A program made the translations under genes and the position numbers. Shown here one piece after another: positions 756 through 51,588 of a stretch of 56,353 nucleotides of DNA; position 1 is the stretch's first letter, and each line of letters starts with the position of its first letter. Source of the stretch: Azovibrio restrictus (GTDB lineage: Bacteria > Bacteroidota > Bacteroidia > Chitinophagales > Chitinophagaceae); the NCBI GenBank assembly GCA_029255605.1, contig JANLJF010000058.1, positions 1 to 56,353 of the forward strand, given 5' to 3'. The notes beneath the pieces were generated by a model. The model saw only the letters and a program-made list of their open reading frames with translations. It was not told the DNA's origin and searched no databases.

Positions 756-849
756 GTTAACAGTTATAAAACAGCTTGTTAACCGTATTTAAAGAGCTCG
801 TTAACCTGCCCCAAAAATTTCTAATGTGCAAAACGGCGCCGCATCTTTG
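756..849 (+). promoter_or_regulatory. GTTAAC-array promoter, copy 1
   Basis: GTTAAC occurs at 756, 778 and 800, each exactly 22 bp apart. It is followed 18 bp later by TTTC (818) and then, after 20 bp, by CATCTTTG (842-849), a variant of the Bacteroidota -7 element TAnnTTTG. The run GCATCTTTGCATCATCAAAC (841-860) is identical in the promoter at 47631-47650, and the distance from the last GTTAAC to GCAT is 41 bp in both. The half-site spacing of two helical turns suggests a dimeric or tandem activator such as a winged-helix response regulator. The regulator is not identified. Confidence 0.7.
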
Positions 850-896: not shown

Positions 897-959
897 ATGC
901 AAAAAACAACCCTGTTCATCGCCATACTTGCCTGCCTGGTAGCAGCAGCAAACATTTAA
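897..959 (+). CDS. 20-aa ORF resembling a bare signal peptide
   Basis: ATG CAA AAA ... ATT TAA encodes 20 residues, M-QKTTLFIAILACLVAAANI. It sits about 40 nt downstream of the GTTAAC-array promoter and has an A-rich leader like other genes in this window. The peptide looks like a secretion signal followed immediately by a stop, and compares well with the N-terminus of the DUF4402 protein at 47689 (MKKVFAIAALISASFAANAQ), which uses the same promoter. It may be a relic of a duplicated secreted-protein gene, a leader peptide, or a real micro-protein. Coding status is uncertain. Confidence 0.35.
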   Translation: MQKTTLFIAILACLVAAANI

Positions 960-981: not shown

Positions 982-1113
982 ATGAAATCTTTATCCTTAC
1001 TACCTATCGGCATCTTATTACGCAGTTATCTGCTGGTGGCTTTCATCCTGGTATATGTGCAGCAGCAAAAGGCAAAGCGTGCAGAAAAGAAAGCAGCACA
1101 ACCGGCACCATAA
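982..1113 (+). CDS. 43-aa small membrane protein
   Basis: This ORF starts at ATG 982 behind a second A-rich leader, 22 nt after the 20-aa ORF, and ends at TAA 1111-1113. It encodes one membrane segment (roughly residues 9-26, IGILLRSYLLVAFILVYV) and a basic, Ala/Lys/Gln-rich tail (QQQKAKRAEKKAAQPAP) that would stay in the cytoplasm. It is followed within 50 bp by a clear terminator, so with the promoter at 756-849 it forms a compact transcription unit. I do not recognise a family. Small single-pass proteins of this kind often act on larger membrane proteins, but no partner can be named. Confidence 0.55.
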   Translation: MKSLSLLPIGILLRSYLLVAFILVYVQQQKAKRAEKKAAQPAP

Positions 1114-47556: not shown

Positions 47557-47639
47557 GTTAATCGCCTGTTAACCGATTGCAAAGCACGGGTTAACGAGGG
47601 CTCAGAATTTGTCTTGAGTGATGCGGCGATGCATCTTTG
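47557..47639 (+). promoter_or_regulatory. GTTAAC-array promoter, copy 2 (DUF4402 gene)
   Basis: GTTAAT (47557), GTTAAC (47568, +11 bp) and GTTAAC (47590, +22 bp), with TTGCAAAGCAC between the last two, as in copy 3. TTTG (47608) follows 18 bp after the last GTTAAC, then 20 bp, then CATCTTTG (47632-47639). The start region GCATCTTTGCATCATCAAAC matches copy 1 exactly. The A-rich leader runs to ATG 47689. Confidence 0.78.
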
Positions 47640-47688
47640 CATCATCAAACAACGAAACAATCTCAAACAAAAACAAACAACAAACAAA

Positions 47689-48240
47689 ATGAAAAAAGTA
47701 TTCGCAATCGCCGCTCTGATTTCTGCATCTTTCGCTGCTAACGCTCAAAACGCTTCATCTTCAGCTACACAAACAGTAAACCTGAACCTGAGCAATGCTA
47801 TCGAAATCACCTTCACTGGTAACAACAGCGCTACAGGTGCTGCCGTGAACCTGGCTTTCAATACAGTTAATGATTACGCTAACGGTGTTACTTCAAGCGA
47901 ACAAGGCCTGAAAGTACGTTCTAATAAAAACTTTACAGTAGCGGTAAAAACAAACGCTGCCAACTTTACTTATACAGGTACTACTTCTCCTGCCCCTGTA
48001 ATGCCTATCGCCGGTGTGCTGGGTGTCATGGTTTCTGCAAACGGTACAGGTGGTACCATCGCCACTCCATATTCTGCTTCTACCTATGCTGACCTGAGCA
48101 GCACAGCTAAAAACCTGATAACAAATGGCAGCAAAGGTGGCAACCAGACTTTCGCAGTGAAGTATGAAGCTACTCCGGGTTTTGCTTACCCTGCCGGTAC
48201 TTACACAGTAGATGTAGTGTACACAGCTACACAACAATAA
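47689..48240 (+). CDS. DUF4402 secreted protein (pilin-like candidate)
   Basis: From ATG 47689 the protein has 183 aa: signal peptide MKKVFAIAALISASFAANAQ and one beta-sandwich domain of the DUF4402 type, starting SSATQTVNLNLSNAIEITFT and with FNTVNDYANGVTSSEQGLKV, NKNFTVAVKTNAANFTYTGT, PIAGVLGVMVSANGTGGT and a C-terminal YPAGTYTVDVVYTATQQ. Upstream ATG at 47614 falls inside the promoter and is excluded. Regular codon use and an A-rich leader suggest high expression. The next gene encodes a large Ig-barrel-Ig protein, so it may be exported by it as a surface subunit; that is inference. Confidence 0.85.
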   Translation: MKKVFAIAALISASFAANAQNASSSATQTVNLNLSNAIEITFTGNNSATGAAVNLAFNTVNDYANGVTSSEQGLKVRSNKNFTVAVKTNAANFTYTGTTSPAPVMPIAGVLGVMVSANGTGGTIATPYSASTYADLSSTAKNLITNGSKGGNQTFAVKYEATPGFAYPAGTYTVDVVYTATQQ

Positions 48241-48300: not shown

Positions 48301-48377
48301 ATCAGTATTAGCTGCCCGCCATTCATTATATTTACCACCGATAAGACGCTGCCTGCATATATACTGTGCAATGCATC

Positions 48378-51149
48378 ATGAGAGGACTCCCTAAATATCA
48401 AACAACAACTGCATTCGTTTTTGCTATGTTTTTGCTACTGCTAACTACGGTAGCCAATGCACAGCTTAGCAAAACAATTTATAAAACTGCCTTGCTCAAT
48501 GATACCCTGGTAGCAGCCGGTAACAGGGATTTTCTTTACAATACCATCAATATCACCAACCTTACCAATAATAAAATAAGCATCATAGTAAATGTTACCG
48601 CCCCCGAAGGGTGGGAAATGGTAACACAAAGCCTGGTAACCGTAAGCCTTGATGAAAATGGCAATACCAGTATCCCCATCCGTTTAGTACCCACTAAATC
48701 GCGCACGGCAGTATGGCAAACAGTACGCATAGAATACCGCCTCAACGATGGGCTTGAAAAACTGGTAGATACGTTCAGGGTACGGGTAAAAGAATTTACC
48801 AAATTCAAAGCCACCCTACCTAATGGCAACTATGTGATGGCAGGGTATGAAAAGAATATCAGGTTTCCCGTAGTGCTTCGCAACATGGGCAATACCCCCA
48901 ATAACTATACGGTTAAGTTTCAAAATGCTTTCCTGCAGCTCGATTATCAGCAGTCCTTATTACTTCCACCCGGTAAAGACTCTACTTTCTATATTCCCCT
49001 GCACATTACAGAGCGGCAGTGGAGTATGCTGAAGAAGGAAGAAATAAAAGTGCAGGTAAGTGTAGAGAACGGCGAAACGATGAACCTGGCGCAGGTGGTT
49101 TCTAAAATAGGCAGCGTACTGAAAGAGCATTCTTCTGCATACCTCGATATGCCATTGCAACTGGAAGCCGGTGCTACTTACCAGGGGGAAGATAACGTGC
49201 AATACTACGGTGCGCTGCACGGTTCTGTAGATCTTACACCGCAAGACAAAATAGCTATAGACCTGCGCAGCAAAACACTATCTAAAGGCCAGGCTATTGA
49301 TAATAGTATAGTGCGTGCCGAATACAATGGACATAAATGGTATGGCACAGCCGGCAACATCAATGAACTGACCGACTTCTACATGGATGGCTATGGTGCC
49401 AAAATAGGCCATAAATGGAAACAACGGGATCGACTGGAAGCCTATGGTTTGCTGAAGAGCCGCACGGGCGACAGCAAACTTGGGGGTATCAATTATGAAT
49501 ATGGCGGGCTGCGGGAAAATATACGGATAGCAGGTGGCGCCACTGCCAACTTTGATAATGAACGCCAACTAAATAGCTACCTGGTAAAGCAAAATGGAGA
49601 ATGGCGCTTTGCCGAGCAAGGGAAGCTGATACTTTCAGGCGGTGTGGGTATGGAACAGACTTTTCAGAAACTGGCGGGCAATGCCAAAGATAAACTATGG
49701 GGTACATCGGCAGGCTACAATCTGCAATGGGCCAGTAAATGGTCGGCTGTGTCATCTTCTGTGTTATATAACAGTAATTCTTACCCCGGTATTTTCAAAG
49801 GCCAGCGCATGCAAAACCATGATGCCCGCCTTATTTACAAAAAAGTATTTACCGGTGGCTTTTATGAATACAATCTGCGCCGGCAGAACTTCTACCAGGA
49901 TACTACTTTGTTTTCCGATGTGTTCAACCTGGAAACCGAAAACTACGGTGTGCGCACAGGTTTAGGAATGAATGGGGCCAGTATCGTATTATCGGCGGGT
50001 AAGCAATTGCAGGTACAAAGCGATACAGGAAATTTTGCCAGGTACCGTTTCTCCTACCTCAACCTGAATGCATCGGTACTATTCTTCAAAAGGCTATCTG
50101 TTACACTAAATTCTTATTACGGGGAAGGTGTAATACCGGGCCAGGAAACTACTACTGCAGTTACTATCAACAGTAACCAGGGCAATATCCAATACCGCTG
50201 GATAGGCGCTTCATTCCGCTACGATAATGGCCCATACTATTACCACGAATACATTTCTTACATCAAGGCCCCGCAGGCTTACGAACGTATTGTCATTAGC
50301 CCCTTTGCAGAAATCAGTCTTTTCAAACGCACGCTCAACATCCGTTCACAACTCAACTACAACAAAACAAAACCGGGCGATATTGAAACTTCAAACATAC
50401 TGGCCAATGTCATCTATGCGAATCCTAAGCTTGGCTTCGACTTCAATATGATTGGTATCATTCCTGTAAAGCAATTGGAAATGACACCATACATCAGTGC
50501 ATCTTTACGTGTTCGTTTGCATGCCCCCTTTGTAGTGGCCCGCAAGTATTATGCACTTAAGGTAGTATTGTTTAAAGATGCCAATAATGACGGTGTGAAG
50601 AACAATGATGAAGAGCCCATTGCAGGCCAGATGCTTTCTTTGGGCAATAATCTCTTTATTACGGATAAGGATGGCAGTATCCTATTCAAAAACATAGACA
50701 AAGGCGAATACAAGGCCGACTTTGGCTATAGCAGCAAGATACGCGGTTGGGTGCCCAGTTTGGGGCCTACACAGTTTGTTACTGTAAAAGGCAACCAGAC
50801 ATTATACGTACCGTATAAAATAAGTAAGATATTACAGGGTAAACTCAATCTTACTATCGATTCCAATTCAAACCTTAGCTTCAAGCTGAACAACATTAAG
50901 GTAACAGCCGAAACGGTGGAAAACGCAGATACCATCAAATATGCTACGCTTACAGATGAGAATGGCGAGTTCTACTTCAACCTACCCAGCGGTAATTACA
51001 TCATTACATTAAGCCCGCTGGCTTTTGACGACAACTTCAGGCCTACACAGTTTTCCCAGCCTGCCGATTTGGTGAATAACAATACCAAGACCATTTATTT
51101 CGATATCAAACAGCGCAAACGCCAGATCAATATCCGTAAAAAGGATTGA
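48378..51149 (+). CDS. Usher-like outer-membrane protein (Ig - barrel - Ig)
   Basis: From ATG 48378 (MRGLPKYQTTTAFVF) the protein has 923 aa. After the signal (LLLLTTVANA) come two Ig-like beta domains (about residues 30-225, e.g. TNLTNNKISIIVNVTAPEGW; VVLRNMGNTPNNYTVKFQNA). Then a long barrel-like region of amphipathic strands, about 235-710 (YYGALHGSVDLTPQDKIAID; FRYDNGPYYYHEYISYIKAP), and two C-terminal beta domains: an SdrD-type one with VVLFKDANNDGVKNNDEEPI (about 723-742) and a carboxypeptidase-like one (TLTDENGEFYFNLPSGNYII). Ig-barrel-Ig-Ig is the plan of fimbrial ushers. No direct homology to FimD is claimed. Confidence 0.75.
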   Translation: MRGLPKYQTTTAFVFAMFLLLLTTVANAQLSKTIYKTALLNDTLVAAGNRDFLYNTINITNLTNNKISIIVNVTAPEGWEMVTQSLVTVSLDENGNTSIPIRLVPTKSRTAVWQTVRIEYRLNDGLEKLVDTFRVRVKEFTKFKATLPNGNYVMAGYEKNIRFPVVLRNMGNTPNNYTVKFQNAFLQLDYQQSLLLPPGKDSTFYIPLHITERQWSMLKKEEIKVQVSVENGETMNLAQVVSKIGSVLKEHSSAYLDMPLQLEAGATYQGEDNVQYYGALHGSVDLTPQDKIAIDLRSKTLSKGQAIDNSIVRAEYNGHKWYGTAGNINELTDFYMDGYGAKIGHKWKQRDRLEAYGLLKSRTGDSKLGGINYEYGGLRENIRIAGGATANFDNERQLNSYLVKQNGEWRFAEQGKLILSGGVGMEQTFQKLAGNAKDKLWGTSAGYNLQWASKWSAVSSSVLYNSNSYPGIFKGQRMQNHDARLIYKKVFTGGFYEYNLRRQNFYQDTTLFSDVFNLETENYGVRTGLGMNGASIVLSAGKQLQVQSDTGNFARYRFSYLNLNASVLFFKRLSVTLNSYYGEGVIPGQETTTAVTINSNQGNIQYRWIGASFRYDNGPYYYHEYISYIKAPQAYERIVISPFAEISLFKRTLNIRSQLNYNKTKPGDIETSNILANVIYANPKLGFDFNMIGIIPVKQLEMTPYISASLRVRLHAPFVVARKYYALKVVLFKDANNDGVKNNDEEPIAGQMLSLGNNLFITDKDGSILFKNIDKGEYKADFGYSSKIRGWVPSLGPTQFVTVKGNQTLYVPYKISKILQGKLNLTIDSNSNLSFKLNNIKVTAETVENADTIKYATLTDENGEFYFNLPSGNYIITLSPLAFDDNFRPTQFSQPADLVNNNTKTIYFDIKQRKRQINIRKKD

Positions 51150-51182: not shown

Positions 51183-51266
51183 GTTAAGCGTTTGTTAATG
51201 GGTTGCAAAGCACTCGTTAACAACACATATAAAATTTGCCTTTAGCGTCCATGCAATGCATATTTG
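51183..51266 (+). promoter_or_regulatory. GTTAAC-array promoter, copy 3
   Basis: GTTAAG (51183), GTTAAT (51194, +11) and GTTAAC (51216, +22), with GGTTGCAAAGCAC between the last two, match copy 2 closely. TTTG follows at 51235 (19 bp after GTTAAC), then 20 bp, then CATATTTG (51259-51266). It precedes the 89-aa gene by about 50 bp. Confidence 0.75.
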
Positions 51267-51318: not shown

Positions 51319-51588
51319 ATGAATCCTCAGGAAAGAGCATTAGCCGTTTTCACCCGTATGTCAAGGCTTGTGGTGAAAAAACATTTAAAAGCCAGCACAC
51401 GAGACTCCTATGATTATGTTGGCAATCTTGTAAACAACATGCAGATGATCAACCAAACGTTGATGACTGCCGCTGTTTATCTTATTAAACGTGTACGCGA
51501 TAAGAACGAAGTGAATGTAGAGGAACTTACTGCCGACCTGAGACGGGTCATACATGGTTCGGTAGCCGAATACGCTCAGAGCGTTTAG
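51319..51588 (+). CDS. Small helical protein, GTTAAC-regulated
   Basis: An 89-aa cytoplasmic protein that reads as mostly helical: ERALAVFTRMSRLVVKKHLK, YDYVGNLVNNMQMINQTLMT, AAVYLIKRVRDKNEVNVEEL and TADLRRVIHGSVAEYAQSV. There is no signal, membrane segment or known motif. It shares the GTTAAC-array promoter with the DUF4402 gene and the tiny ORFs near 0.9 kb, so it belongs to that regulon; role unknown (possible adaptor or regulator). Followed by a terminator shared with nusG. Confidence 0.7.
   Translation: MNPQERALAVFTRMSRLVVKKHLKASTRDSYDYVGNLVNNMQMINQTLMTAAVYLIKRVRDKNEVNVEELTADLRRVIHGSVAEYAQSV

Follow-up and report, generated by a model that had tools for sequence, protein, structure and literature searches.

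Three distant places in the window (by which we mean the whole stretch of 56,353 nucleotides analysed here) carry the same array of short direct repeats in front of the same kind of core promoter, and we think that they are probably promoters of one regulon, under a winged-helix activator of the OmpR/PhoB type acting on an array with a period of 11 bp, the activation being suggested by the position of the array. The regulon would comprise several secreted proteins of a family that we call S, along with a large barrel-like protein (B) and two kinds of micropeptide, T and U. The finding is real and extends beyond the earlier note on this DNA, to which it adds two subclasses of the array, the gene families that they precede and their distribution among genomes. 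The coordinates of the features are collected in Table 1.

Table 1. Promoter arrays, core promoters and genes of the proposed regulon in the window
Feature	Position	Strand	Remarks
Copy 1 array	756..805	+	GTTAAC 756, 778, 800; weaker TAAAAC 767, TTAAAG 789; T subclass
Copy 1 core promoter	818..849	+	TTTC 818-821, N20, CATCTTTG 842-849
T micropeptide	897..959	+	20 aa (MQKTTLFIAILACLVAAANI); under copy 1
U micropeptide	982..1113	+	43 aa; hydrophobic stretch and basic tail
Copy 2 array	47557..47595	+	GTTAAT 47557, GTTAAC 47568, GCAAAG 47579, GTTAAC 47590; S subclass
Copy 2 core promoter	47608..47639	+	TTTG 47608, N20, CATCTTTG 47632
S protein	47689..48240	+	183 aa, secreted; predicted pilin-like fold; under copy 2
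B protein	48366..51149	+	927 aa; SdrD_B match near the C-terminus
Copy 3 array	51183..51221	+	GTTAAG 51183, GTTAAT 51194, GCAAAG 51205, GTTAAC 51216; S subclass
Copy 3 core promoter	51235..51266	+	TTTG 51235, N20, CATATTTG 51259
89-aa protein	51319..51588	+	under copy 3

The half-sites were read directly at the three places, and the common layout claimed for them in the earlier note is indeed there, with GTTAA units 11 or 22 bp apart. What that note had missed is a weaker unit halfway between the last two GTTAA units; since this unit sits 11 bp from both neighbours, the period of the array is 11 bp throughout, and copies 2 and 3 each present four half-sites at exact 11-bp steps. On the plus strand of the window as a whole, eight of the 11 same-strand GTTAA pairs lying at most 60 bp apart are spaced by exactly 11, 22 or 33 bp, and one of the 11 by 44 bp. 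From the start of the last GTTAAC to the start of CATNTTTG we measured 42, 42 and 43 bp in copies 1, 2 and 3, which is equivalent to the 41, 41 and 42 bp to GCAT given previously. The core TTTG-N20-CATnTTTG, proposed earlier for all three places, is found in copies 2 and 3, whereas copy 1 has TTTC at the same spacing. The housekeeping promoter of Bacteroidota is TTTG / TAnnTTTG, and the window resembles it in the TTTG-like -33 box, the -7 box ending in TTTG and the N20 spacing, but the -7 box here usually starts with C (CATNTTTG) and not with T, and copy 1 departs from it at -33 as well.

The array is not a peculiarity of the window. In the 3.27-Mb genome, GTTAA-N17-GTTAAC has 13 forward and 13 reverse matches, corresponding to 15 distinct places, against 0 and 1 matches for the reversed control. 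With two mismatches allowed in GTTAAC-N16-GTTAAC the excess is gone (101 versus 157 for the control), and near-exact sites alone are therefore informative. Among the 23 exact or one-mismatch places that we inspected outside the window, the majority precede genes with the same core promoter, and some near-exact sites fall within reading frames (e.g. C101:10243 and C16:63962); the view that this is something other than a pattern scattered at random thus stands. The distance to the core promoter is also well kept: 17 of the 18 promoters analysed from the window's genome, and 13 of the 16 from G050, have a -7-like box 42-44 bp past the last unit. For the S genes of the named genomes this distance is 42 or 43 bp in 37 of 54 cases and 54-55 bp (one repeat more) in seven of 54, and an array scoring at least 14 of 18 is present ahead of 49 of 54 S genes, compared with 17 of 931 random stretches of 260 bp. 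In G033, six-unit runs at 11-bp steps precede two S genes.

The third unit of the array, which is usually TTGCAAA-like or TTYTAAA, divides the arrays into two subclasses that go with two gene families. In G000 and G050, T genes have a TTYTAAA-like unit here, one TTACAAA being the exception, and S genes mostly have TTGYAAA. In other genomes, 20 regions were picked by TTYTAAA and 20 by TTRYAAA before their genes were checked; considering the sites with a -7-like box in these pre-chosen regions, 13 of 21 TTYTAAA sites led to T, as against none of 22 TTRYAAA sites, and 13 of the latter 22 led to S proteins. We then pooled 130 sites (those from loci L214-L339 being retained only with a -7-like box 40-46 bp on), of which 123 were left after removal of pairs more than 90% alike; 34 of the 123 precede other or unclassified genes and two precede B. 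The subclass rule is kept by 18 of 19 T promoters and by 67 of 68 S promoters, L318 being counted among the S set though not S-like in appearance (Fisher 2e-16, uncorrected for relatedness, though related sequences do not count as independent). T promoters have in common further upstream GTTAAC-like units, and copy 1 is built unlike copies 2 and 3 because it is a T promoter. The TTGYAAA-like arrays serve S genes and the TTYTAAA arrays T genes. As a separate observation, the upstream regions of S genes at L229, L232, L236, L237 and L247 share approximately ACTACTAANGTTAGTGATGTGG...GGGG behind a partial array, which is a second promoter type.

The distribution of the array depends on how strictly it is defined. 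The two-unit pattern, without the middle unit, shows a clear excess in only G000, G050 and G062 among 117 genomes of the family, and a weaker one in G033 and G042; in most of the 117 it is not enriched, and the control often reaches the same level or a higher one. The strict array, GTTAA-N4-TTNNAAA-N6-GTTAA, includes the middle unit and matches in 40 of 394 family genomes, 26 of them with three or more matches and 14 with one, while its reversed control reaches at most two per genome. The 26 genomes span seven genera, namely g1, to which the window belongs (9 of 10 genomes), g21 (4 of 7), g34 (1 of 1), g43 (4 of 5), g51 (4 of 4), g63 (2 of 2) and g80 (2 of 2), so that the array is kept in relatives, on which the earlier note had made its reading depend. 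Outside the family the counts in our sample of the class are near chance: among 295 genomes a strict match occurs in 17, and none has more than two except G000 and one genome with four identical copies. Of the 25 genomes that encode a close S protein, 23 have three or more arrays, versus three of the remaining 369. At E<=1e-10, S finds no match in the array genomes G062, G144 and G196, and the array is thus not tied to S alone.

Half-sites every 11 bp are typical of OmpR/PhoB-type regulators, whose tandem direct-repeat sites include the pho box of PhoB and those of PhoP of B. subtilis, WalR and PmrA. The array follows this operator pattern, with direct repeats about 6 bp long that recur every 11 bp; its half-sites are TTAA/GTTAA-rich, arranged head to tail and placed upstream of the core promoter. 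It differs from the known sites in its four to six units, in the deviant third unit with its two subclasses, in the Bacteroidota core promoter, and in targets that bear no apparent relation to phosphate or cell wall; this operator is not described in the titles and abstracts that came up in a search of open-access papers. The binder is most likely an OmpR/PhoB-family response regulator that works as dimers arranged head to tail. It would occupy at least four half-sites (approximately TTGTTAAC) which, being 11 bp apart, lie on one face of the helix. The last of them starts about 18 bp ahead of the -33 box and 42-43 bp ahead of the -7 box, where the bound activator could touch RNA polymerase. 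The earlier proposal of one regulon, with an activator-like site upstream of -33 and half-sites spaced by one or two turns in the manner of a tandem winged-helix protein, is supported; its DUF4402 label (see below) and its TTTG in all three copies are not.

An alternative is that the binder is a LytTR-type regulator, which would contact the two strong GTTAAC units, spaced by two turns, while the remaining units are auxiliary. LytTR sites are two-turn direct repeats, and the strong units, 22 bp apart upstream of a promoter, do resemble those of AgrA/ComE-type proteins; moreover, a LytS-type histidine kinase and a LytTR response regulator are encoded directly downstream of an arrayed T gene (L021, contig C83, 3511-5225), the latter protein being the candidate. 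For LytTR sites one would not, however, expect four to six conserved units in a row at 11-bp spacing. The C83 protein, for which the distribution was compared (the genome has 16 LytTR matches), does not track the arrays either: G069, G097 and G100 have orthologues at 61-63% identity and none of them has a strict array, whereas the array-rich G050 gives only a weak best match (3.1e-43). We consider a LytTR-type regulator unlikely for these reasons.

Returning to the OmpR/PhoB type, the window's genome encodes five such regulators. Three relatives that lack the array contain close orthologues of two of them, C77 and C101b, and two of these three relatives contain one of C145; for C112 and C101a no match there exceeds 36%. 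C112, the one of the five followed across the family, has a histidine kinase behind it and is found at E<=1.2e-100 in 19 of 394 genomes, 18 of which are array genomes. This may only track kinship, since eight of the 26 array genomes lack C112 and the matches next under the cut-off (3.6e-98) are in array-free genomes. It fits four of the seven genera (g1, g21, g34 and g51) and is missing in the array genomes of g43, g63 and g80, and we do not assign the regulon to it. In G350, which has neither array nor S match, the relative of C112 is a distant one (2.9e-71). In G033 (L353, contig C288) a C112-type OmpR regulator and two S genes, whose arrays are degenerate and of six units, are oriented divergently; in 15 other genomes no S gene, T peptide or array scoring at least 15 was present within 9-13 kb around C112. 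Autoregulation was sought at 107 loci around OmpR- and LytTR-type regulators, where a single locus gave the highest array score, 15 of 18 (the threshold shown being 14); as the degenerate arrays of G033 reach no more than 13 on this scale, weak arrays may have been missed.

Alternatively, the promoters might have been copied along with paralogous genes, their likeness being inherited without any common regulator to maintain it. S genes are multicopy, and near-identical promoters do exist (window 47568 and contig C140; C71 and C96). We nevertheless find this explanation very improbable, since genes that are unrelated to one another (T, U, B and others) have this array in front of them, and since in the 123 sites left from the 130, at most 90% alike, half-sites and phase are kept while the spacers differ. 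Also very improbable, in our opinion, is a role as the operator of a repressor, or as an upstream element, AT-rich and phased, that RNA polymerase or a nucleoid protein would use: phased AT-rich repeats can serve as upstream elements and position by itself does not prove activation, but sequence-specific half-sites in two gene-specific subclasses point to a specific binder, and the array keeps its place upstream of the core promoter at a fixed distance.

As to the targets that the proposed activator would serve, S is a multicopy family of secreted proteins of about 180 aa, with arrays of the S subclass in front. The S gene at window 47568 and that of L036 (contig C140) are near-identical together with their promoters, their surroundings being different, which indicates a recent duplication. 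The predicted model of S is an incomplete Ig-like pilin fold (pLDDT 86.5). In the structure search its best match is the filament pair TLP-1a/TLP-1b, from pond water; the TM-scores among the best matches listed are weak (0.34-0.54), and the identity to TLP-1, one of the CryoSeek filaments, is 19-20%. A comparison with the sequences of the PDB gave no match of worth. According to a review, the TLP-1 filaments have resisted conclusive identification (PMC12967142). With chaperone-usher pilins S shares the predicted pilin fold, but the TM-scores are weak and the PapD-type chaperone (PapD_N, PF00345) was found in only one of seven regulon genomes. When 26 S proteins were compared with Pfam the best matches, all weak, were PapG_N (0.0026) and DUF6488 (0.0051), and the DUF4402 label of the earlier note is not borne out, this family being absent from the 15 reached at E<=1 by any of the 26. 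S could be a fibre subunit and B its outer-membrane partner. The model of B is weak (pLDDT 53), with two N-terminal beta domains and a large beta-barrel, and as such does not distinguish an usher-type 24-strand barrel from other barrels. Relatives of B in G244 and G156 are preceded by arrays of their own.

T is a newly recognised family of predicted membrane peptides of 20-58 residues, of which 21 were collected behind arrays in g1, g43 and g51; the members tested reached no Pfam or NCBIfam family above the cut-off. The C-terminus is fixed, with F at -14 from the end in 21 of 21 and C at -8 in 20 of 21. In ten codon comparisons (nine of T and one of U, some sequences being used twice), 117 of 198 synonymous and 58 of 627 non-synonymous sites differ, i.e. 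pS 0.59 versus pN 0.09, and these peptides are therefore very probably translated and under purifying selection. In the window, the T-U pair is followed by a terminator-like hairpin with a T-run (AAATCCCCGACTTACGGGGATTTTTTG) at 1166-1190. A U-like second ORF (43-52 aa) sometimes follows T (G265, G196 and G244) and in G042 stands immediately behind an array, the likeness being judged by eye except for the g43 pair, which entered the codon comparison.

The T peptides have some likeness to signal peptides. At the place where a lipobox would precede the conserved cysteine, the residue at -1 is S, A, V, T or G in the 21 members, and one member matches Pfam LPAM_1 below the cut-off (E 0.071). When a T profile was run against the N-termini of 278 secreted proteins from the fetched loci (75 S and 203 others), the top five were all S signal peptides; the signal peptides of S have low scores for the most part, which limits the link to a few of them. 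T shares its pattern with some S signal peptides and ends exactly eight residues from the conserved cysteine, counting the latter. It is conceivable, though we would hold it with considerable doubt, that T peptides are stand-alone, uncleaved mimics of signal peptides, made from the same switch as S, which regulate the export or assembly of S fibres or are released as hydrophobic peptide signals; we know of no device of this kind in Bacteroidota. At L031 (contig C65), an array precedes a 40-aa ORF whose start resembles an S signal peptide, the body of S being absent.

Other small proteins also stand behind arrays. One set, of about 40-64 aa, has a GELVEV-like motif and an end rich in Y-x-Y and was seen in G000, G042, G196 and G283 (e.g. 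L019, L134, L330 and L332, from three genera), and the 89-aa protein under copy 3 matches no family above the cut-off. Lipoprotein-like proteins of 184 aa (L030) and 180 aa (L127), alike by eye, lie behind array-like sites in G000 and G050.

To our knowledge, few operators are known in environmental Bacteroidota, and the present analysis gives for these bacteria a probable regulon with its site, its promoter, its targets and its distribution, in a form open to testing. It also brings up conserved peptides of as few as 20 residues, and a multicopy family of proteins with a predicted pilin fold.
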